From Pseudomonadota bacterium (GTDB taxonomy: Bacteria > Pseudomonadota > Alphaproteobacteria > Puniceispirillales > Puniceispirillaceae): a DNA stretch of 64,000 nucleotides. Positions within the stretch are counted from its first letter, which is position 1. The number at the start of each line of letters is the position of its first letter. A model generated the notes under the pieces. That model was not told the DNA's origin. It saw only the letters and a list, made by a program, of their open reading frames with translations, and searched no databases. Positions 360 to 30,071 of the stretch are shown piece by piece. The translations under genes were made by a program, and so were the position numbers. Where the stretch lies: the NCBI GenBank assembly GCA_027620495.1, contig JAQCEA010000002.1, forward strand, positions 1 through 64,000, read 5' to 3'.

Positions 360-1052
360 ATGGCAGATCGTATCGCGCTGGTTGATGATGACCAGAATAT
401 TTTGACTTCTGTGGCATTGGCCCTGGAATCTGAAGGGTACGACGTCGACAGCTATAGTGATAGTGAGGCCGCGCTTGCCGGGATTACCCGCCGCAAGGTG
501 GATCTGGCGGTGTTAGATATTAAAATGCCGCGTATGGATGGCATCGAGCTGTTGCAAAAGCTGCGCAAACAATCACAGTTGCCGGTGATTTTTTTAACCA
601 GTAAGGATGATGAGCTTGATGAGGCGCTTGGCCTTGGCATGGGCGCGGATGACTATATCACCAAGCCATTTTCGCAACGATTATTGCTGGCGCGGATTCG
701 TGCTGTGTTGCGGCGTGCCAGTGACAATGTCATGGCAACAACCGGGCCAAATATTATCAGACAAGGCCATTTGCTGATGGACCCTGACCGCCATTTATGC
801 AGTTGGAAAGAGACCGAGGTGAAACTGACGGTCACTGAATTTCTGATTTTGCAGGCATTGGCCGCGCGGCCCGGCATGGTCAAAAACCGTGATCAATTAA
901 TGGATGCCGCTTATGGCGAGAGCATTTTTCTTGATGACCGAACCATTGATAGCCACATCAAACGCCTGCGGCGGAAAATGCGTGCGCATGACACGGAATT
1001 TGACCAGATAGAAACGCTCTATGGCATTGGCTATAAATATAAAGCAAACTGA
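360..1052 (+). CDS. chvI: Two-component response regulator ChvI
   Basis: An OmpR-class response regulator of 230 residues. The receiver domain (about 1-120) has the acidic pocket D9-D10-D11, the phospho-acceptor D53 (VLDIKMP), T80 and K102 (ITKPF). A winged-helix DNA-binding domain follows (about 135-228, with [16 protein letters not shown]). The start ATG has GGGAG nine bases upstream. The gene lies 43 bases before the sensor kinase chvG. In alphaproteobacteria this pair controls envelope stress, exopolysaccharide and acid responses. The assignment to ChvI rather than another OmpR regulator rests on the chvG and rapZ context. Confidence 0.88.
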
Positions 1053-1095: not shown

Positions 1096-2721
1096 GTGTT
1101 TGTCGAATCCATCAAAAGGGCGTTCAACCGGGCCGCCGCGATGCTGTTGGCACCATTGCGCATGAGCCGGCTTACCGCCCGTATCATGGCGATTATGGTG
1201 TTCCCGCTGTCGATCTTTTTGGTGGGGTTGCTGTCGATAGACCAATATCGCACAACATTAATCCAGTCGGAATTTATCGCGCTTGAACGTCAGGGATTTA
1301 CCCTTGCGCGTTCACTGGCTTTGGCCGAAGCGGACCGTGACCAGCAATTTGCCCGGCGCCGATTATCAGCGGAAACGATGACGCATTTATTGCCGCTGGT
1401 TGGGCTGGGCAGTTCATTGCGGGCGCGGGTGTTTCAACCAAATGGATTATTGCTTGCCGACACCGCGCGGCCAGGCCGGTTGCGTATACCGGTTGAGGTG
1501 AAGCGGCGCGAGGATCGATCGTGGCTTGGTCACACCCGTGATCATCTCAATGATGCAATGAACAAGGCATCATCATTTTTCAGTTTTGCTGATGATCTGC
1601 CAATTTATGTTGAACGGCGTCGCCAACGGGCCGATCACTTCCCCGAAGTTTTGGCGGCTTTGTCTGGCGAACCGCGCCGGGCGCTCCGTCAAGATGCAGG
1701 CGGTGAGCTTGTCTTGTCAGTCGCCGTTCCCATACAAGATTTACGGCTTGTGCGTGGGGCGTTGCTGGTGTCAATCAGCGGCGGTAAAATTGAACGCGAA
1801 TTGGCAAATGTGAATATTGCCTTTTTGCAATTATTTCTGATCGTATTAATGGTGACAATTGGACTTAGCCTATATCTGGCTCGGTCGATCACCCGGCCGA
1901 TCAGCCGCCTTGCCAGTGCCGCAGATCAGTTGCGCCGCAGTGGTGATACGTCACGCCGGTTACAACAATTGCCGCAGCGCAATGATGAAATTGGTCATTT
2001 ATCGGATGCGCTGCTTGCCATGACGGATGAATTGCAACGCCGGATTCAGGCCACCGCCGCATTTGCCGCAGATGTAGCACATGAAATCAAAAACCCTCTA
2101 TCCTCATTGCGCAGTGCGGCGGAAACAATCAGCTTGATCAAAGATCCGGCACAACAGCAAAAATTGATGAATGTGATTTTACAAGATGTCAGCCGCCTTG
2201 ACCGATTGATTACCGATATTTCGCAAGCCAGCCGCGTTGATACCGAAATCATCGGCCAAGATGGCGAACCAATTGATTTTGCCGCGTTGCTTGATAATTT
2301 TATCCAGTTGCGCCGACAAAGCTTTGCCAATCACAAGCTTGTTTTGGTCAAACCTGAACAGCCAATCATGGTGGTCGGACAGGATGGGCGGATTGTGCAG
2401 GTGCTTGATAATCTTCTCAGCAACGCGGTGTCTTTCAGCCCAAAAGGTGCTGAAATCATTTTCGACCTCAGTATCAAGGATTCGCCGGCACAGGCTGTTT
2501 TGCAAATCCTTGACGAGGGGCCGGGAATCCCTGAAAACCGATTGGAAACGGTGTTTCATCGGTTTTATTCAGAACGGCCAAAAGGCGAATCTTTCGGCGA
2601 TCATTCAGGTCTAGGGCTATCAATTGCCAAACAGATTATCGAGGGACATGGTGGCAGCCTTGTGGCAAGTAACCGTGATACAGGTGGCGCTTGTTTTACC
2701 CTGACCCTGCCGCTTGCCTAG
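1096..2721 (+). CDS. chvG: Sensor histidine kinase ChvG
   Basis: A membrane histidine kinase of 541 residues from a GTG start. Two membrane segments (about 28-50 and 240-263) bracket a periplasmic sensor region. HAMP follows (ITRPISRLA), then the H-box with phospho-acceptor His329 (DVAHEIKNPLSSLRS), the N-box (QVLDNLLSNAVSFSP) and ATP-binding G boxes (DEGPGIPE, HSGLGLSIAKQ). It would phosphorylate ChvI, encoded just upstream. The start is uncertain: no clear ribosome-binding site precedes the GTG, and an in-frame ATG at 1141 would remove 15 residues. In many alphaproteobacteria hprK comes next; here rapZ follows after 90 bases. Confidence 0.88.
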   Translation: MFVESIKRAFNRAAAMLLAPLRMSRLTARIMAIMVFPLSIFLVGLLSIDQYRTTLIQSEFIALERQGFTLARSLALAEADRDQQFARRRLSAETMTHLLPLVGLGSSLRARVFQPNGLLLADTARPGRLRIPVEVKRREDRSWLGHTRDHLNDAMNKASSFFSFADDLPIYVERRRQRADHFPEVLAALSGEPRRALRQDAGGELVLSVAVPIQDLRLVRGALLVSISGGKIERELANVNIAFLQLFLIVLMVTIGLSLYLARSITRPISRLASAADQLRRSGDTSRRLQQLPQRNDEIGHLSDALLAMTDELQRRIQATAAFAADVAHEIKNPLSSLRSAAETISLIKDPAQQQKLMNVILQDVSRLDRLITDISQASRVDTEIIGQDGEPIDFAALLDNFIQLRRQSFANHKLVLVKPEQPIMVVGQDGRIVQVLDNLLSNAVSFSPKGAEIIFDLSIKDSPAQAVLQILDEGPGIPENRLETVFHRFYSERPKGESFGDHSGLGLSIAKQIIEGHGGSLVASNRDTGGACFTLTLPLA

Positions 2722-2811: not shown

Positions 2812-3705
2812 ATGCAAATTGATGATGCACCCCTAAAATTGGTTTTGGTCACCGGTGTATCGGGCGCCGGTCATTCAACCGCACTAAAAATTTTAGAAGA
2901 CCACGGTTTTGCCGCGGTTGATAATTTGCCATTAGCGTTGGTTGACCCGTTAATTGCACTCGAAGTTGAAACCGGCGGACGTCAAATTGCTATTGGACTT
3001 GATGCCCGCACCAGTGGCTTTTCCAAGACAGCGTTAGATACATTAACCCGCAATCTGCGCAAACGTCTTGGCAGTCAGTTCCGGATGGTGTTTGTGACCG
3101 CGGCGCATGGTGATTTAATGCGGCGCTATAAAGCCACCAGACGCCAGCATCCATTAGGTGCTGGCCAGTCGCTTGATGCGGCCATTTCGGCTGATATGGA
3201 ACGCATGGACGATATAGATGCGATTGCAGATGTTCATATTGATTCGACCGGCATGGCCCCGGTGGACATGCGGCGGTTGCTTCTTGAATGGCTAAATCTC
3301 GCCAGCGATACAGCGATGCCCGTTCATATTATATCGTTTTCCTATCGCTATGGATTGCCGGATACAGCTGACCAAATATTCGATATGCGGTTTGCCAAAA
3401 ATCCGCATTGGGATGATGGGTTGCGCGCTAAGACTGGTCTGGACAAGGATGTTGCCGCCTTTATCGCTGCTGATCCGGTTGCGTCTGATGTGTTGCATCA
3501 TATCAAACATATTTTGTCAGAAACATTGGTGCGTATGCGGCATGAAGGCCGACCACATATTACCATTGGATTTGGCTGTACTGGGGGGCGGCATCGGTCA
3601 GTCTGGGGTGCCCGGCAAATTGCTGACTGGGTCGCTGAACAGGGCCATCCGGTAGAGCTGACGCACCGTGAATTAAATGCAAACCAGCATAAAGGCCAGC
3701 CCTAG
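2812..3705 (+). CDS. rapZ: RapZ family nucleotide-binding protein with altered P-loop
   Basis: A RapZ/YvcJ family protein of 297 residues, the normal length. It has an N-terminal P-loop domain and the conserved C-terminal domain with the signature GCTGGRHRSV near the end. In Enterobacteria RapZ binds small RNAs and glucosamine-6-phosphate; its role in alphaproteobacteria is less clear, although the gene usually sits with chvIG and PTS genes. The P-loop reads GVSGAGHST: the Walker A lysine is replaced by His21 (codon CAT at 2872-2874). This may weaken or change nucleotide binding. The rest of the protein looks intact, so it is unlikely to be a pseudogene. Confidence 0.88.
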   Translation: MQIDDAPLKLVLVTGVSGAGHSTALKILEDHGFAAVDNLPLALVDPLIALEVETGGRQIAIGLDARTSGFSKTALDTLTRNLRKRLGSQFRMVFVTAAHGDLMRRYKATRRQHPLGAGQSLDAAISADMERMDDIDAIADVHIDSTGMAPVDMRRLLLEWLNLASDTAMPVHIISFSYRYGLPDTADQIFDMRFAKNPHWDDGLRAKTGLDKDVAAFIAADPVASDVLHHIKHILSETLVRMRHEGRPHITIGFGCTGGRHRSVWGARQIADWVAEQGHPVELTHRELNANQHKGQP

Positions 3706-3804
3706 CCGCGTTAAGGCAAAGTCGCGGTAGTGCTTTTCATAACGCATCTTATTTGCTATCAGTGCGAGAGATCGTTTGTCACGTACAAGATTGGAAACAA
3801 ATTC

Positions 3805-5199
3805 ATGTCACATGATTATATCATCGCGGATATTTCTCTGGCCGATTGGGGCCGTAAAGAATTGTCAATTGCCGAAACCGAAATGCCCGGTTTGATGGCA
3901 TTGCGCGATGAATTTGGCGCGGCAAAACCATTAAAGGGCGCGCGTGTTGCGGGCTGTCTGCATATGACCGTGCAAACCGCGGTTTTGATTGAAACGCTGG
4001 TCGCACTTGGTGCCGATGTACGTTGGTCATCTTGTAATATTTTTTCAACGCAAGATCATGCGGCGGCTGCCATTGCCGCATCAGGCGTGCCGGTGTTTGC
4101 CAAAAAAGGCGAAACACTTGGCGAATATTGGGCATATGTTGATCGTATTTTTGATTGGCCAAATGACACGACTGCCAATTTGATTCTTGATGATGGCGGC
4201 GATGCCACAATGTATATTCTGCTTGGTGCGCGCGCCGAGGCTGGCGAGGCTGTATTGGCAACGCCAAGTTCCGAAGAAGAAGAATTTCTAAAGGCGCAAA
4301 TCAATAAACGCATGGCCAGCAGCCCGCGGTGGTTCATCAAACAGCGCGATGCGCTCAAAGGTGTGTCTGAAGAAACCACCACAGGTGTGTTGCGCCTGTA
4401 TCAGCTTGCCGAAGCAGGCGGCCTGCCATTCCCGGCAATTAACGTGAATGATTCTGTGACCAAGTCAAAATTTGACAATTTATATGGGTGTCGCGAGTCA
4501 CTGGTTGATGGTATCCGCCGTGCCACAGATGTGATGCTGGCTGGCAAAGTGGCTGTTGTGGCTGGTTATGGCGACGTTGGCAAAGGGTCTGCGGCGTCAC
4601 TTCGTCAGGGCGGTGCGCGTGTAATGGTGACCGAAGTCGACCCGATTTGTGCATTGCAGGCGGCGATGGAAGGCTATGAAGTCGTCACGATGGAACAGGC
4701 CGCGCCAAAGGCTGATATTTTTGTCACTGCCACCGGCAACCGGGATGTGATTACCATTGACCATATGCGGGAAATGAAAGACCGCGCGATTGTTTGTAAC
4801 ATTGGCCATTTCGATAATGAAATTCAGGTGGCGGCGCTGAACAACTATACTTGGTCTGAAGTCAAACCGCAGGTTGATGAAATTGAATTTCCTGATGGCA
4901 AGCGCATGATCCTGCTGGCCAAGGGGCGGTTGGTTAACCTTGGATGTGCGACCGGTCACCCATCATTTGTGATGTCAGCGTCGTTCACCAATCAGGTGCT
5001 AGCGCAGATGGAATTATGGGCCGAGGGTGAAAAATACGAAAATAAGGTCTATACTTTGCCGCGTCATTTGGATGAAAAAGTGGCGGCATTGCATCTGGCC
5101 AAGGTGGGGGCCACCTTGTCAAAGCTTCGCCCAGATCAGGCTGATTATATTGGCGTTGAACAGCAAGGCCCGTTCAAAAGCGAACAATATCGCTATTAA
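3805..5199 (+). CDS. ahcY: Adenosylhomocysteinase
   Basis: S-adenosyl-L-homocysteine hydrolase of 464 residues, which splits SAH into adenosine and homocysteine and keeps the methylation cycle running. Visible signatures are the N-terminal substrate domain ([17 protein letters not shown]), the NAD-binding loop [12 protein letters not shown], and the C-terminal tail ending in YRY that completes the neighbouring subunit's cofactor site. I placed the start at ATG 3805 (MSHDYIIAD) because homology begins there and GGAAA lies upstream; the open frame runs 25 codons further but looks non-homologous. No SAH riboswitch was recognised in the 99 bases before it. tsaE follows after 5 bases. Confidence 0.96.
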
Positions 5200-8811: not shown

Positions 8812-11800
8812 TTTAATCCATCGTGCCAGTGCCGCGCAGGCCGATGCGTCTGAACCTGCCGCTTCGGTGTTTGTGTCGGCCAATGCAGGCACCGGAAAAA
8901 CCAAGCTTTTGACCGATCGGGTGTTGCGTTTGCTTTTGGCCGGGGCGCCTGCTGACAGCATTTTATGCGTGACCTATACCCGTGCGGCCGCGGCAGAAAT
9001 GCGTAATCGTATCAATAAACGGCTCGGGGACTGGACCATTATCAGCGCCAAGGCGTTGAGCGAAGACCTGAAAAAAATGGGCATCGAAACGCCGCCCCAA
9101 GACATGATGCAACGCGCCCGTAGCTTGTTTGCTCAAATCCTTGATAATGACAATGGGCCGCGGGTGGAAACCGTACATTCATTTTGCCAGACCATCTTGC
9201 ACCGGTTCCCTATTGAGGCCGGTATAACCCCCCATGCCCGACTAGCAGACGATGAAGAACAAGCCCGGCTAAAGCTGCAGGCCCGCAATAATATTATGGC
9301 CATGGCCGATAGCGCATTGATGAACGCGGTGCAATTGATTGCGGAAATGGCGAATGAAGGGCGTGCGGATCAAATTTTACAGGCGTTTTTAAGCCAAGAA
9401 ACACGGCTTGCAGACCCGCAGATCATAAACAAGGTGATCGCGCATTTTGAAAATGATTTGCAAATTCCTGATGCAAAAACCCTAGAAACCCGCAAAAGTG
9501 AGGCCATAGACCGTATCGATATAGAGGGCTTGCGCGCGGTAGCGGCGGCTTTAGACGCCTCTGGTGTTGAAACGCATAAACGCCGGGCATCAAAGATAAA
9601 AGTATGGGTGGCACAACCGCCAAAAGACCGTGTCGAAAAATTATCATTTCTTGTTGATGCGTTGTTTACGGCAAATGGGCCGCGAAGCGAACGGACGTTA
9701 TCAAATGCGGATATTCGCAACGCAATGCCAGATGTGGTTGCCATACAACAGGCGGCGATTGACGCGATTGCGCCTATTTTGTGCGGGGACAATGCTCTTA
9801 TATGCAAACAGATGACGGTCGCGCTCTATCGTTATGGTGTGGCGTTCTGGCGTGAATATGAGCGGTTAAAAGCGATGCGTGGGGTGCTTGACTATGATGA
9901 TCTGATCAATCGTACCAATAGGCTTTTGGACCAAAGCGATGCGGCGCAATGGGTGGCATGGAAGCTCGATAATGGCATTCAGCATATGCTCATTGACGAG
10001 GCACAGGATACAAGCCCGCAACAATGGCAATTATTACGGCGCCTGATCGATGATTTTTTTGCTGGTGAAGGGGCGAATCATCATTCTTCAAAAGGTCAGC
10101 AAGATCACCAACGCACAGCCTTGCCAGCGCGCAGTATGTTTGCCGTTGGTGATTTTAAACAATCGATTTATTCCTTTCAGGGGGCTGACCCACGGGTTAT
10201 GGGCGACAATCGGCAATCTTTGGCAACACGGGCAAGAGAGGCAAATAAAGAATTTCGTGACGTGGCGTTATCGGTTTCGTTTCGGTCAAGCAGGCCTATT
10301 TTACAGCTGGTAAATGCCCTGATTCCGCACCGCCCGGGGATAGAGGATTTTAGCACCCATGAGGTGGCACGTGATGATCTGCACGGCTTTGTCGAAATTT
10401 GGCCGGTTGTTAAATCTGCCGATGAGACAAAACTAGATCGCTTGTTTGGCGCGCCTGCCGCCACCAGCAGCAATGATGTTCAAACAACCGCCGCCAAGCA
10501 GCTTGCTGATACAGTGAAACAATGGATTGGTCACAAAACCCTGTCGTCTGGCAAAGTGGTCGGGCCTGGCGATATTTTGATCTTGTTGCGCAAACGCGGG
10601 GCATTTTTTGAACAAATTTTAAAAGCGCTCCAACAAAATGCCATTCCGGTTGCTGGTGCTGACCGCATGACCCTCGAAGATCAAATCGAAATTCAGGATC
10701 TTCTCGCGCTTGGCGATGTGATGATGCTGCCTGAAGATGATTTACAACTGGCGGCTGTGTTGAAATCACCATTATGTGGATTTGATGATACAGATTTATA
10801 TGATCTGGCCTATGGCCGCGGTCAGGCTAGCCTTTATGCGAGGCTGATGACGCATCGCGGCGGCAAAGGCAAATTTGGTCATGTAGCTGACCAGCTGGCA
10901 GAGTGGCGTTTGGTTGCCGATCAGGAATCAGTTTTTGGATTTTTCAGCCATGTTCTGGTGAATGGCGGACGGCAGAATTTTATTGGGCGACTTGGCCATG
11001 CGGTGAATGAATCGCTTGATCATTTTTTGGGTCTGGCGCAAAGCATGGCGCTTGGTGATGGCGTGTCATTGTTGCATTTTCTGGCTGCCATTCGTGGCAG
11101 TGGCGGCGATATTAAACGCGATATGGACAGTGCGGGAAGTGACGAGGTGCGCGTCATGACAATTCATGGGGCCAAAGGTCTTGAGGCCCCGATTGTTATG
11201 CTTCCCGATATGTTGAAGCCGCGCGCTGTCAATCAGGTGATAGGTATCGACCAAGCCGGGCGGTCCGTCTATTGGATTCCGCCGGGTACAGCGTTTCACC
11301 CGCAATTTTTAAAAGATGCCAAAGCTGTAAGCCGCGAACGCGAACAGCAGGAAGCAAACCGTTTGCTCTATGTCGCGCTGACCCGTGCCTGTGAAGGGCT
11401 GGTGATTGCCGGATGGGAAAAATCATGCGGGGTGCGCACGCTGGACGAAAGTGATTACGCGGCGGTAAAATCTGCGCTTGGCATGCTGGCTGATGTTGTT
11501 GAGACAGATGACGGCCATATGCAGCTTTACACCGCCGCCACCCGTATTGCCGAACCAGTCGAACCAACCCGAACCGCCATATTGCCGCATAAAGCAGCGG
11601 TTGCACCTGACCCATCTGATCTGGACTGGATTGACCAACCCGCCCAGCGCGATGCACCAGCTGGCAAGCCCTTGCGGCCATCACAGCCGGGCCTTGATCA
11701 TGCGCCATTTTCGATTACTAACGTTAAAGATGGACAGCGCCGCCACAGCGCGCTTGCCTATGGTCGGCTGGCGCATCGTTTGCTGGAAATTTTGCCTTCA

Positions 11801-23825: not shown

Positions 23826-24626
23826 ATGGCGGATCTGCTGAGCGATGACCAAATCACCGAGTTTAAAGAAAAAGGCGTGACGGTACTTCGCGGCGTCTTT
23901 ACCGATTGGGTTGAGGTGTTGCGCGCTGGCGTTGATGCCAATATGGCAGACCCTGATCCAAATGCCCGCATTTACAAAGGCGAAAATGGGGGTGGTCGGT
24001 TTTTTGTCGATTATTGTAATTGGGCGCGTATCCCGGAATATAAAGATTTCATATTTAATTCCAATGCCGCCGCCCTTGGTGCCGCGTTAATGGACAGCCA
24101 GCAGGTGCAATTGTTTCATGAACATGTCTTGGTGAAAGAAGCCGCCACGGGCGTGCCAACACCGTGGCATCAGGATGCGCCATATTATTGCGTGGATAGT
24201 ACCAAGACTGTCAGCATGTGGATTCCGCTTGATGACGTGCCAAGAGACACCACGTTGGAATTTATCTCTGGCTCGCATAAATGGGATAAATTTTATCGCC
24301 CACAGCGCTTTGATGGGTCTGCGCTCAATGAAAATGATGGGTTGGAAGCCATTCCAGACATTAATGGTCATCGCGATGATTATGAAATACTTGGCTGGGC
24401 GGTGCAGCCCGGTGATGCCATTGCCTTTGACTATCGCACCATTCACGGCGCGCCTGCCAATACCAGCAAGAGCAATCAACGCCGCGCCTTTTCGCTGCGC
24501 TTGGTCGGGGATGATACGCATTTTGTCCGGCGTGAAGGCATTGTGACTTCGCCGCCATTTCCGGGCGTGACACTCAAACATGGTGACAGATTAGCCGGAG
24601 ATGAATTTCCTATTCTGCGAAGCTAG
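23826..24626 (+). CDS. Phytanoyl-CoA dioxygenase family protein
   Basis: A 266-residue Fe(II)/2-oxoglutarate-dependent oxygenase of the PhyH family. The iron ligands are His115 and Asp117 (PWHQDAPYY) and His207 (RTIHGAPAN); Arg residues in NQRRAFSLRL probably bind 2-oxoglutarate. Bacterial members hydroxylate small molecules such as ectoine or phosphonates, and the substrate cannot be read from the sequence. It is preceded by AGAGGGAGAG. It stands alone: the upstream neighbour is tRNA-Ala and ptsN converges on it. No transporter gene is beside it. Confidence 0.88.
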   Translation: MADLLSDDQITEFKEKGVTVLRGVFTDWVEVLRAGVDANMADPDPNARIYKGENGGGRFFVDYCNWARIPEYKDFIFNSNAAALGAALMDSQQVQLFHEHVLVKEAATGVPTPWHQDAPYYCVDSTKTVSMWIPLDDVPRDTTLEFISGSHKWDKFYRPQRFDGSALNENDGLEAIPDINGHRDDYEILGWAVQPGDAIAFDYRTIHGAPANTSKSNQRRAFSLRLVGDDTHFVRREGIVTSPPFPGVTLKHGDRLAGDEFPILRS

Positions 24627-24661: not shown

Positions 24662-25123
24662 TTATGCTGCCGTGGCGTGATGCTGATCAAAACATTGTCT
24701 GATATCTGATGCTGTTTTGGCGTTACGCAACGCCTGACAGACGGCCACGTTGGCAAGGTGTTTTGCCGCAGCAGATACCAGTTTTAGATGGTCACAATCG
24801 GCCTGATCAGGGCCAAGGATTGTGCAGACAATATCGACCGGTTTTTTGTCATGGGCATCAAAGGCAACCGCCCTTTCAAGCATGGTAATGATCACCACGC
24901 TTTGCGTCAGCTCGGCAAATACCGCGTGCGGTATGGCCATGCCACCCCCGATCGTGGTGCTACCAAGTCGTTCGCGTTTAATCAGCGCATCAAACACCAC
25001 CCGGGCCGGAACCTTTGTCAGCGATCCGGCGTGGGCCGAGATATGTTCAAGCAGTTGTTTTTTGCTGTTGACCGATAAACCAATCATCATGCCGTCAGTA
25101 GGCAGATGGTCCAAAAGAGGCAT
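24662..25123 (-). CDS. ptsN: PTS IIA-like nitrogen regulatory protein PtsN
   Basis: EIIA-Ntr, 153 residues, with the phospho-accepting His in GMAIPHAVF. In the nitrogen PTS it receives phosphate from NPr and regulates potassium transport, stringent response and other targets. I set the start at ATG 25123 (MPLLDHLPTD) because AGGA lies at good spacing and family homology starts there; the open frame runs 13 codons further. It follows lptB on the same strand, but rpoN and hpf, which usually lie between them, are absent. Confidence 0.9.
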   Translation of the reverse strand: MPLLDHLPTDGMMIGLSVNSKKQLLEHISAHAGSLTKVPARVVFDALIKRERLGSTTIGGGMAIPHAVFAELTQSVVIITMLERAVAFDAHDKKPVDIVCTILGPDQADCDHLKLVSAAAKHLANVAVCQALRNAKTASDIRQCFDQHHATAA

Positions 25124-25257
25124 AAAAAATCCTGTAGAAATGACAGAAAGAGGCGCAGTCATAAATAGCTGTCAGGCTCCCCACCGCGCTGCTAAGCGGC
25201 GCATTGATAGGCGCGGAGTACGGTGCTGTCAAGCGATCATTATTTCGGGGGCTGGGG

Positions 25258-26037
25258 CTATATGCTAAAACGGTCACCAAGATAGACTTGGCGGACGCCA
25301 GAATGTTGTACCACCTCATTTGGCGTGCCTTGCATCAACATGGCGCCATCATGGATGATATAGGCCCGATCGACAATATCGAGTGTTTCGCGGACATTAT
25401 GGTCGGTGATCAAAACGCCTATTCCGTGGTCTTTTAAATGCCCAATCAGATCACGAATTTCACCAAGCGCGATCGGGTCAATGCCTGCCAGCGGTTCATC
25501 AAGCAACAAGAATGTCGGGCGCGCGGCAAGCGCACGCGCAATCTCTAGCCGGCGTCGTTCACCGCCTGATAAATTCACTGATGGTGTGTTGCGCAGATGG
25601 GTGATGCCAAATTCAGCCATTAATTCATCAAGTGTGGCGTCTCGTTCATCATCGTTGTCATCAAGCGTTTCCAATACGGCGCGGATATTTTGTTCGACAG
25701 TTAGGCCCCGAAAAATGCTTGATTCCTGTGGCAAATACCCCATGCCAAGGCGGGCGCGCTGGAAAATTGGTAGGGTGGTTACATCCTGCCCGTCAATAAA
25801 CACACTGCCTTCATCAGCCGGAATCAACCCAGCCAACATATAGAATGTGGTGGTTTTGCCAGCACCGTTTGGCCCCAACAGGCCCACAGCTTCACCGCGA
25901 TTTAATTTGATGGACACATTACGCACCACCCGGCGCTTGTTAAAACTCTTACCAATGCCATTGGCGCGCAAACCAGATTGGCTTTGCACCAAGGTTGGTT
26001 GCTGTCCAAGTCCCAATTGTGAGTCCAGTTTTGCCAT
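25258..26037 (-). CDS. lptB: LPS export ABC transporter ATP-binding protein LptB
   Basis: The cytoplasmic ATPase of the LptB2FG lipopolysaccharide exporter, 259 residues. It has Walker A GPNGAGKT, the Q-loop YLPQESSIFRGLTV (characteristic of LptB), the signature LSGGERRRLEIARAL, Walker B FLLLDEPLAGID and the H-loop ITDHNVRETL. It lies downstream of lptA and lptC on the same strand. lptF and lptG are not in the window. Confidence 0.95.
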   Translation of the reverse strand: MAKLDSQLGLGQQPTLVQSQSGLRANGIGKSFNKRRVVRNVSIKLNRGEAVGLLGPNGAGKTTTFYMLAGLIPADEGSVFIDGQDVTTLPIFQRARLGMGYLPQESSIFRGLTVEQNIRAVLETLDDNDDERDATLDELMAEFGITHLRNTPSVNLSGGERRRLEIARALAARPTFLLLDEPLAGIDPIALGEIRDLIGHLKDHGIGVLITDHNVRETLDIVDRAYIIHDGAMLMQGTPNEVVQHSGVRQVYLGDRFSI

Positions 26038-26111: not shown

Positions 26112-26924
26112 CTACGGGTTTAACACACCTGTGACGCGTTTGCCACTGTTGTCTGACAACAGCCTGCTGATTTCCTTATCAAATTCGACTTCTGCCCGCG
26201 ACCCGCGCATAATATTGTCGCGATCAATGATTTCAACATTGCCAAACAAGTCGGCACGGTCTGTCGCGGCGACATAATCTAGACGGTCGGCGGTAGCGAC
26301 AATGCCCTTTGGGGTAACAACTTTGGCGTTCCCATCGGCGTTGATGGTCTCAATCGCACCTTCTTCATCTAGAAAGGCGACAACCCGTTCACCCTCAACA
26401 ACACGTCCATTATCGTCCTTGTAAGTGGCCGCGCCAATCGCAATCACCTGTTTGTTGGTGATATCGCTGGCATTATAGGTGATAGAGCCAGTGGCGGTAA
26501 TGATGCCGCGCGGGCTGGTCACAATGGCTTTGGGGCCAGCAAGGTCATAGGTTTCGTCAACAATGCGGTAATCCAGCTTTGCGCCGCGTGCGACATTGTC
26601 ACCATCAACAAAGACCACCGACCCGGTGGCAGAGACATCGGTTAGGTCCCGGCCTTTTGATGACGGGTCGTAACGTGCGATGATTTCATCCGCTTTTAGG
26701 CGTTTATCATCCTGTTCAACAACAGCATCACCAATGGCGATATATACACCTTTGGTTTGGTCCCATTCCAGCGAGACACTGGCCTCTATGGATACAGGCG
26801 ATGATTTTGTGTTTTGCGCCAATGCTGGATGAGATAGCATGATCGCGCCTTGGAAAAGAGCGGCGACAAGAAGCGCGGCTGGTCGATGGCTGTCTGGGGC
26901 AATGTTCATTTTGGTTTTGGACAT
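26112..26924 (-). CDS. lptA: LptA/OstA family periplasmic LPS transport protein
   Basis: A periplasmic bridge protein for lipopolysaccharide transport, 270 residues. An N-terminal signal peptide (about 1-36, cleavage after HPALA) precedes a series of OstA-type beta repeats (AVVEQDDKRLKADEIIARYD, ATADRLDYVAATDRADLFG). It is 20 bases downstream of lptC and upstream of lptB, the standard order. It is longer than E. coli LptA but within the range of alphaproteobacterial members. Confidence 0.88.
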   Translation of the reverse strand: MSKTKMNIAPDSHRPAALLVAALFQGAIMLSHPALAQNTKSSPVSIEASVSLEWDQTKGVYIAIGDAVVEQDDKRLKADEIIARYDPSSKGRDLTDVSATGSVVFVDGDNVARGAKLDYRIVDETYDLAGPKAIVTSPRGIITATGSITYNASDITNKQVIAIGAATYKDDNGRVVEGERVVAFLDEEGAIETINADGNAKVVTPKGIVATADRLDYVAATDRADLFGNVEIIDRDNIMRGSRAEVEFDKEISRLLSDNSGKRVTGVLNP

Positions 26925-26944: not shown

Positions 26945-27601
26945 TTAATTTGCCGTTGCATCTGCGGTCTGCATCACCATGCGCGCGGTGCCGCCAAACA
27001 GAATCCGATCGCCATTATCAAAGACGGTCATGGTCTCTGCGTTAATACGACGGGCGTCATCTGTCACAGTGACTGGCACGAGCGAACGCATTTCACCAAG
27101 CTTTAAATCGGCAAATAGCGCATCAGATTCGAGCTTTAGATTTTTTTCTGGCTGGGTGACAACAACATCCCCGGCCATATCAACCACATCATCTGGCTGG
27201 TCAAAGACGCCATAATTTGATTGAAGGTTGATAATCTGGCCATTTTTCATGGTGATGGTGGCGCGTGGTTGTTGCATGTCGATGCGGCCAGAACCATCAT
27301 TGGCCTCAGACGCCTGATCGGCGGTGATCAGAAAAGGCTGGCCAGAAGATGTGACACCTTGATAGCGCGCCCCGGTCAGGGCGATCTCGCCACTATTGGC
27401 TATTTTTACGTCTTTGATTTCCAGTTTGCTGTCACCAGATTGATGTAAAAAGCCAAGCCAGCTTGCCACCACTAGGGTGACGGCAACGCCAATGCCAAGC
27501 AAAACAACCGACAACCGCCGCGATGGCCGCTGTTCATCCTGAACCGATCTTGTGCGCGGGGTGAATTGACGGCGTTTTGATGATGATGGCGTGCGGGCCA
27601 T
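26945..27601 (-). CDS. lptC: LPS export protein LptC
   Basis: A bitopic inner-membrane protein of 218 residues. A basic N-terminus and one membrane segment (about 30-50) are followed by a periplasmic LptC/YrbK domain with an OstA-like fold (GARYQGVTSSGQPFLITADQ). It passes lipopolysaccharide from LptB2FG to LptA. Its place directly upstream of lptA supports the call. Confidence 0.87.
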   Translation of the reverse strand: MARTPSSSKRRQFTPRTRSVQDEQRPSRRLSVVLLGIGVAVTLVVASWLGFLHQSGDSKLEIKDVKIANSGEIALTGARYQGVTSSGQPFLITADQASEANDGSGRIDMQQPRATITMKNGQIINLQSNYGVFDQPDDVVDMAGDVVVTQPEKNLKLESDALFADLKLGEMRSLVPVTVTDDARRINAETMTVFDNGDRILFGGTARMVMQTADATAN

Positions 27602-28487: not shown

Positions 28488-30071
28488 TCACATCTTTTGC
28501 CGTTCATGTTTCAGACCGATCCAGAGGCAGTAACACATAACCAAAATCACAAGGGTTAAGGGGATGCCGGTGGATACAGCCGCGCCCTGCAGCGCATTTA
28601 ACCCCCCGCCAAGCAACAGGGCGATGGCAACCAGCCCCTCAAGCGTGCACCAGAACACACGTTGCGTTACCGGTACATCCATTTTTCCGCCTGCGGTGAT
28701 GGTATCGATGACAAGCGACCCTGAATCAGATGACGTCACAAAGAAAATTACGATAAGGTCCAGTGATATCGGGGCGACAACGCTATAAAATGGCAGCTCT
28801 TTGAGCAGTCCAAACAGCGCCCCTTCCGGCTTGTAGTCATCACTGTTGCCGCGACACCGGGCGCGCCGCCAGCATTCAGCATATCGATCACAGCCCCGCC
28901 GAATGTGGACATCCATAAGGCACAGACAAGCGTTGGTGCCACCAACGCGCAGATAATAAATTCGCGCACCGTTCTGCCTTTTGAAATACGGGCGATAAAC
29001 ATCCCGACAAATGGTGACCACGCGATCCACCACGCCCAATAAAACGTTGTCCAGCCATGACAATAGCTGGTGTCATTTCTGCCAAACGGATTTGAAAGCG
29101 CCGGTAAGAGCAGAACATAATCCACCATGACACTGAAATATCTGGTGACGGCGGCGACAATGCCCGTGGTGATAATGACAAAGAAAAACAGCCTGACTGC
29201 GACAATCATATTAATTTCAGATAACCGTTTAACCCCAGCATCCATCCCCAGAAGTACTCGAGCCAAGCGCAATAGCGGTGATGCCGATAATCAGCCATAC
29301 GGTGACGGCCGGGGTTGGCGTGATGCCAAAAATTTCATTGAGGCCTGCCGCCACTTGACCCGCACCAAGACCAAGTGATGTTGTCAGCCCAAATAGCGTG
29401 GCGAACACCGCCGCTGTATCAATCGGATGGCCCCTCGCGCCCCTGACGCGTTCGCCCAGCAATGGCACAAACGCCGATCGTAGGGTGAGTGGAAACCCAT
29501 AATGATAGCTGAAAATCCCAAGCGATAATCCAACCGCCGCATAGACGGCCCAGCCTTCAAGCCCCCAATGATGGATTGTTCCAACGATGCCGATATATTC
29601 CTTATCAGCGATGTTGATGCCAAGCGGGCGGCCGGCACCGCTTTCAGAAAAATTATAATAGACAGGTTCAAGCACGCCAAAAAACAACAAGCCAATACCA
29701 ATGCCAGCGGCAAACATCATGGCGATCCAACCGGCATAGGAATAATCTGGTTTTGCGTCTTTGCCGCCAATTCTGACCTTGCCGACAGGGTGAAAAATCA
29801 ACACCAGACAAAATAGCGTGATGGCGTTGACCGACAACACCAAAAACTAGTCAAAAGTGCTGGTGAGCCAAGGGCGCAACCAGCCAAAAAATTCAGCTGT
29901 CGCATTTTGATTGGCCAGCGCAATCAGCACAAAGGCCGCAATCACGATGCTGGATATCAAAAATACCGGATTATGAATATCAAGGCCAAACGGCCGAATA
30001 TTGCTGTCGCCCAATTTATGTTTGGTTTCGCCCCATGACCGTGGGTCTGGATCTTGTCGTAACTGCGCCAT
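28488..30071 (-). pseudogene. BCCT family betaine/choline transporter, disrupted
   Basis: A remnant of a sodium- or proton-coupled transporter for betaine, choline or DMSP-like compounds, about 525 codons in all. The family core is plain (MMFAAGIGIGLLFFGVLEP, YWAWWIAWSPFVGMFIARI, SSDSGSLVIDT). Three lesions break it: an in-frame TAG at 29847-29849, where the family has Trp-Phe; a one-base insertion in a run of four C (plus strand 29246-29249); and a shift near 28841-28844. Most codons around the lesions still read as family sequence, so decay is recent, or some lesions are sequencing errors. Confidence 0.85.

Follow-up and report, generated by a model that had tools for sequence, protein, structure and literature searches.

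A compact lptB-ptsN junction and a PtsN without its phosphotransfer donors in the alphaproteobacterial order Puniceispirillales, with rpoN in a flagellar cluster

Introduction

The closest described system to the one considered here is the alphaproteobacterial PTS-Ntr, the PtsP-PtsO-PtsN relay of organisms such as Brucella and Caulobacter. The two are alike in having a PtsN-like EIIA bearing the active-site histidine, encoded beside lptB, and share the chvI-chvG-rapZ-ahcY neighbourhood of HPr genes, which in other Alphaproteobacteria contains hprK, an EIIA-Man gene and HPr between chvG and ahcY, according to the relevant sections of two papers (PMC2937029; PMC13104625). In contrast to that system, the order studied here has no enzyme I (EI), HPr or HprK (bar one contaminated genome), does not carry rpoN and hpf beside ptsN, and has a PtsN that scores below the NCBIfam cut-off. 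Partial loss of the relay is shared with the incomplete PTS-Ntr sets of Legionella and Acinetobacter, although in the sets covered in the part of the review drawn on here it is PtsN, alone or together with PtsO, that is missing and the donors that remain, whereas in the present order PtsN has outlasted its donors (PMC13104625).

Several activities of PtsN depend on its phosphorylation state. That review reports that unphosphorylated E. coli PtsN binds TrkA, YcgO and KdpD, and that a ChvI/ChvG-type pair interacts directly with PtsN (PMC13104625). In Azotobacter the unphosphorylated protein is described, in the portion of the paper used here, as repressing alkylresorcinol synthesis (PMC4314083), and in the corresponding portion of a Caulobacter study only phosphorylated PtsN binds SpoT (PMC4848567). 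With regard to sigma-54, the part of a paper on Cereibacter (Rhodobacter) sphaeroides drawn on here likewise describes a sigma-54, RpoN2, for flagellar genes with its own activators; RpoN2 is one of four rpoN copies, whereas one copy was found in the genome studied here and two in most genomes of one related family (PMC11999139). Among titles and the beginnings of abstracts in the open-licence literature, no description was found of SAR116 sigma-54 or PTS, nor of a PtsN/EIIA without EI, that matches the present case.

In this study, we analysed a stretch of 64,000 nucleotides (the window; contig C38) from a Puniceispirillales genome assembled into 48 contigs (2.40 Mb; listed completeness 100%), together with other genomes of the order and of the class. 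The order is taken as the SAR116 group because the nearest named relatives of the window PtsN are from a SAR116-cluster single-cell genome (78% identity) and a Candidatus Puniceispirillum metagenome genome (69%). Families and genera of the order are designated f1 to f4 and g2, g7 and g8.

Results

The lptB-ptsN junction

The minus strand of the window carries the gene run lptC, lptA, lptB and then a PTS EIIA type 2 gene, ptsN (Table 1). A preliminary description had reported that neither rpoN nor hpf lies between the last two genes and that only 134 bases separate them, a distance which is correct when counted to the inner methionine codon of ptsN at 25123, which is preceded by AGGA, and is 95 bases when counted to the first ATG. 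The layout is not peculiar to the window. At all 81 order loci that could be judged lptB lies directly upstream of ptsN on the same strand (the sequence piece for the 82nd starts 71 bases before ptsN), with a gap between aligned ends of 46–274 bases (median 121), and tblastn searches with the E. coli and the genome's own RpoN and Hpf gave no match at any of the order's 82 ptsN loci. An assembly gap was ruled out, as the same layout occurs at 81 of 81 loci, including those of the single-contig genomes G005, G093, G124 and G135.

The gene order in E. coli K-12 is lptC-lptA-lptB-rpoN-hpf-ptsN. Of 20 comparison loci belonging to other groups of the class, 15 show the succession lptB, rpoN, ptsN, and hpf was detected in 13 of those 15; one (G504) has lptB-hpf-ptsN without rpoN, and the pieces from the remaining four yielded neither lptB nor rpoN. 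The compact layout is therefore best read, from these comparisons of gene order, as a derived trait of the whole order.

Two further observations concern the surroundings of the junction. A PhyH-family gene (23826-24626, plus strand) adjoins ptsN in the window and in genome G013, and was not found there in the other loci read. In addition, a BCCT betaine/choline transporter gene (28488-29843, minus strand) is broken into three pieces in different frames that match profile positions 43-237, 232-368 and 374-485.

Table 1. Features of the window discussed in the text, in order of position
Feature	Position	Strand	Basis or remark
Response regulator, ChvI-like	360..1052	+	Named from its place before ChvG; many response-regulator families match, none above cut-off
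Sensor kinase, ChvG-like	1096..2721	+	Best NCBIfam match ChvG, 372.9 bits, below cut-off of 740
rapZ, hprK missing before it	2812..3705	+	NCBIfam RapZ, 273.2 bits (cut-off 244)
ahcY, EIIA-Man and HPr genes missing before it	3730..5199	+	NCBIfam ahcY, 602.8 bits (cut-off 497.6)
ptsN, EIIA-Ntr-like, 166 aa (153 aa from inner Met 25123)	24662..25162	-	Pfam PTS_EIIA_2, 84.3 bits (cut-off 27)
Active-site histidine codon, residue 79 (E. coli His73)	24926..24928	-	Alignment with E. coli PtsN
Stretch from lptB to inner start of ptsN	25124..25257	.	Site of rpoN and hpf in other Alphaproteobacteria
lptB	25258..26037	-	NCBIfam LPS_export_lptB, 357.7 bits (cut-off 240)
lptA	26112..26924	-	Pfam LptD_N family (LptA/LptD N-terminal), 64.9 bits
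lptC	26945..27601	-	Pfam LptC, 57.2 bits

rpoN and hpf elsewhere in the genome

The only copy of rpoN found in the genome is on contig C40, where it was detected by a match to the RpoN activator-interacting domain. Its product has 505 aa and all three sigma-54 Pfam domains (activator, core and DNA-binding), and passes the TIGR02395 cut-off (405.8 bits, cut-off 277.35). The hpf gene stands alone on contig C3 and encodes both S30AE domains. Across the order, rpoN was matched in 95 of 136 genomes and in 36 of the 43 near-complete ones, with no match in the other seven, and hpf in 91 of 136.

The gene lies within a flagellar cluster and adjoins motA-motB. We take its neighbours to be motA and motB on one side and bactofilin-like genes and an M23-like peptidase gene on the other, beyond which are presumably flhB, fliR and fliP and, further away, fliM, fliI, fliG, fliF and a flagellin-like gene, all identified by inspection of the ORFs. 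Eleven further loci, spread over all four families, share the position beside motA-motB. The wider gene order is less constant: no bactofilin or M23 gene was detected at either f4 locus and no flhB-fliR-fliP in the pieces from f2 and f3, and one f1 piece stops after motB. A tree of 52 RpoN proteins, with E. coli as its sole outgroup and several long branches, places the rpoN of the order in one group (98/94) and the class rpoN linked to lptB in another (97/93). This topology is compatible both with relocation of the gene and with replacement of the old copy by a separate flagellar one.

The distribution of sigma-54 genes varies within the order. In most f4 genomes a second sigma-54, ~440 aa long and very divergent, is encoded outside the flagellar cluster (L116:8586-9908, L119:7409-8734 and L192:9552-10916), and in the f4 genome G135 this divergent form is the only sigma-54 found. 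In genus g7, loci L190 and L191 (genomes G104 and G101) have flagellar genes and both activators and no rpoN match, which represents either an assembly gap or activators without a sigma-54. In genus g8 rpoN was not matched in any of four genomes (G106-G109), two of them >90% complete, although activator-domain matches are present; this genus is a candidate for real loss of sigma-54.

Sigma-54 activators and promoter-like boxes

Seven Sigma54_activat matches were identified in the genome that contains the window. Two flagellar ones were read for the activator motif, which is GAFTGA in one (L114:11090-12199) and GSFTGA in the other (L114:9655-10866); the two genes are divergently oriented and lie ~20 kb from rpoN. 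Beside them is a flagellin-like ORF of 1616 aa (L114:13361-18211) with many repeat-like segments between its flagellin-like ends.

A -24/-12-like box, TGGTNY-N5-TTGCW, was found upstream of motA at every one of 12 loci, which span four families, and matches at 9–11 of 12 positions. Chance values at single loci are 0.01–0.13; in control searches before four genes a score of 9 of 12 was reached in two of 18 cases and a score of 10 in none. The box of this genome (L002:10797-10812) lies 52 bases before the ATG at 10865, and in an alignment of the upstream DNA (11 rows) the box is co-aligned in most rows, not all. All three loci of the window's genus also have a box of this kind before the neighbour of the M23 peptidase gene; at six other loci its score there is 0 in five cases and 9 in one. 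In the same comparison of loci no conserved box was found before fliR, fliP or rpoN. Scans allowing one mismatch gave an enrichment in one flagellar stretch, with six boxes against 1.5 expected, and none in the next (three against 1.9) or in the window (four against 5.6).

Together, the activators with GAFTGA-type motifs and the motA box at 12 of 12 loci suggest, at the level of sequence, a working sigma-54 system in this genome. This bears on the view in the preliminary description that the sigma-54 branch had been lost, and with it on the genome-wide search for rpoN, hpf and activators that it proposed as a check. All three were found elsewhere, rpoN on C40 and hpf on C3, and the presence of rpoN, the activators and the conserved promoter-like box rules out loss in this genome. 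These finds supply most of what that description had itself named as refuting it, namely rpoN and hpf elsewhere with intact sigma-54 targets.

Missing phosphate donors

The N-domain of enzyme I (PF05524) was not matched in any of the 136 order genomes, in a search which found it in the controls, Caulobacter and E. coli, and in 290 of 389 class genomes. HPr (PF00381) was matched in one order genome, G097, and not in the genome of the window, and HprK exceeded its cut-off in one of 136, again G097; HprK matches below the cut-off (~19–21 bits), many in ORFs of >500 aa, were left uncounted. G097 has a listed contamination of 7%, and holds a foreign-looking hpf-ptsN pair in addition to the order's only HPr and HprK (L132, L102 and L103). 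The contigs bearing these genes are probably foreign.

In the window, ChvI, ChvG, RapZ and AhcY are encoded consecutively, which substantiates the earlier remark that hprK and HPr are missing locally. The gap between chvG and rapZ is 90 bases and that between the rapZ and ahcY ORFs is 24 bases, leaving no room for an EIIA-Man gene between the latter two. Similarly, the remark that no phosphodonor for PtsN was apparent is borne out for the genome and for the order, with EI in none of 136 genomes and HPr and HprK only in G097.

A donor-less PtsN recurs in the class and is not unique to this order. In the class sample of 389 genomes, 262 have EI and an EIIA type 2, 28 EI alone, 27 the EIIA alone and 72 neither; thus, 27 of 289 EIIA-bearing genomes do not have EI, five of them from this order. 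The other 22 are closer to the present case than the Legionella and Acinetobacter sets.

Distribution of ptsN and selection on it

The closest solved structure to the window PtsN is E. coli IIA-Ntr (1a6j, E 2.1e-24). The score of the window PtsN against the NCBIfam model PtsN TIGR01419 is 107.7 bits, below the cut-off of 138.7. None of six order PtsN tested pass this cut-off, compared with seven of seven from EI-bearing relatives and two of three tested from EI-less genomes outside the order.

Relatives of the window protein were found in 83 of 136 order genomes (one of them G097) and in 26 of the 43 near-complete ones. PF00359 is absent from two near-complete g2 genomes, and ptsN is broken or truncated in G013 and G014. 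The gene is thus dispensable in places, being missing or damaged in many genomes, some of them near-complete. Where it is present, the median dN/dS of 0.09 across 33 disjoint pairs indicates purifying selection, and the one f2 pair tested gave 0.11. Values were higher, 0.18–0.38, in five pairs from the genus of the window, where some ptsN ORFs, at 215 aa, extend back into lptB and may distort dN/dS.

Residue changes around the histidine

Residues were compared in 82 order rows (G097 excluded, the broken or truncated G013 and G014 included) and in 33 distinct class genomes, 28 with EI and five without. The active-site histidine is present in 79 of the 82 order rows, including the window protein; in all three f2 rows it is replaced by serine and the gene is kept. 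All 28 EI-bearing relatives have a K/R two residues after the histidine, whereas in the order this position is R in 11 of 11 f4 rows and K/R is lost in the other 71. The L/I that follows is also loose in the order rows. Loss of the K/R is no proof of lost docking because a Salmonella K75D PtsN is still phosphorylated, according to the section of the study used here (PMC5024086).

The EI-bearing relatives have 38 columns with a uniformity of 90% or more, and 16 of these reach 95% or more in the order. Those kept include nine of the 11 in residues 57–73, the stretch up to the histidine, versus seven of 27 elsewhere (Fisher p 0.003, the stretch having been picked post hoc). No other part of PtsN is as well kept as the histidine and its pocket. 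In the five EI-less genomes outside the order the aligned PtsN looks ordinary around the histidine. Either, then, the absence of EI need not lead to the divergence seen in the order, or EI was lost more recently in those genomes.

Discussion

The reading we favour, and consider probable, is that the rpoN block has been dismantled with sigma-54 encoded in a flagellar cluster, and that PtsN, uncoupled by the loss of EI, HPr and HprK, acts unphosphorylated by binding a partner. The lptB-rpoN-hpf-ptsN block would have been taken apart in the order, with hpf now a lone gene elsewhere. Sigma-54 from the gene beside motAB probably serves mainly motility, as its location in the flagellar cluster with activators and a -24/-12-like box would imply. 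Loss of enzyme I, HPr and HprK from the order would have removed the PTS phosphate route to PtsN, and PtsN appears to have stayed behind lptB, under selection in many lineages. The dismantling of the block and the loss of the donors are two separate things seen together: the preliminary description had tied loss of rpoN to the missing PTS genes, a connection that is not supported since rpoN was not lost with them.

Without EI or HPr, PtsN is most likely unphosphorylated and, by analogy with unphosphorylated E. coli PtsN and its potassium-transport regulators, most likely acts by binding a partner. The SpoT route should be closed in the order because Caulobacter SpoT is bound only by the phosphorylated form. 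A link to Trk potassium uptake was also considered through co-occurrence, which proved uninformative: TrkH is encoded in this genome (C1:48389-49696) and in 41 of the 43 near-complete order genomes, with or without ptsN. Counting against an uncoupled PtsN is the preferential retention of the histidine pocket, as PtsN may still receive phosphate. The phosphorylation of K75D PtsN in Salmonella and the dispensability of ptsN in places also weigh against the favoured reading, as do, for its sigma-54 part, the single-locus chance values of the motA box and the lack of a conserved box before fliR, fliP and rpoN.

A first alternative is that the histidine of PtsN still accepts phosphate from a non-PTS donor, such as an unrecognised carrier, some other enzyme that uses PEP, or a small phosphodonor, and that the protein continues to act as a switch. 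This would account for the histidine in 79 of 82 rows, the preferentially kept stretch leading to it and the strong purifying selection on ptsN. We nevertheless regard it as unlikely, given that EI, HPr and HprK are all missing, that f2 keeps the gene without the histidine and that 71 of 82 rows have lost the nearby K/R. A broader and equally doubtful proposal is that the pocket of the orphan PtsN has been kept for a non-PTS task, either with an undescribed phosphodonor or in sensing phosphate or another ligand, f2 then having a histidine-free binder. If so, the order would have turned the endpoint of a relay into a stand-alone sensor.

It is also rather unlikely that PtsN is a relic in the course of being lost, retained for the time being through its position behind lptB or because decay is slow. 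The retention of ptsN in only 26 of 43 near-complete genomes, the two near-complete g2 genomes without PF00359, the damaged genes of G013 and G014 and the raised dN/dS of the five same-genus pairs speak for a relic. However, the median dN/dS of 0.09 over 33 pairs and the conserved pocket argue for selection in most lineages that have ptsN. Finally, loss of the sigma-54 branch from this genome, to which the absence of rpoN and hpf from their usual place and the seven near-complete order genomes without an rpoN match had pointed, is refuted here by the rpoN, hpf, activators and promoter-like box that the genome contains, and is left with a negligible probability.

For the SAR116 group, the reading of an uncoupled PtsN together with a flagellar sigma-54 has two consequences. 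A broken rpoN block is a warning against calling sigma-54 lost, the gene here being in the flagellar cluster. PtsN, moreover, is generally taken for the output of a relay driven by PEP; an order in which that relay is gone, PtsN is still selected and one family is without the histidine represents a natural test of PtsN function without phosphorylation.
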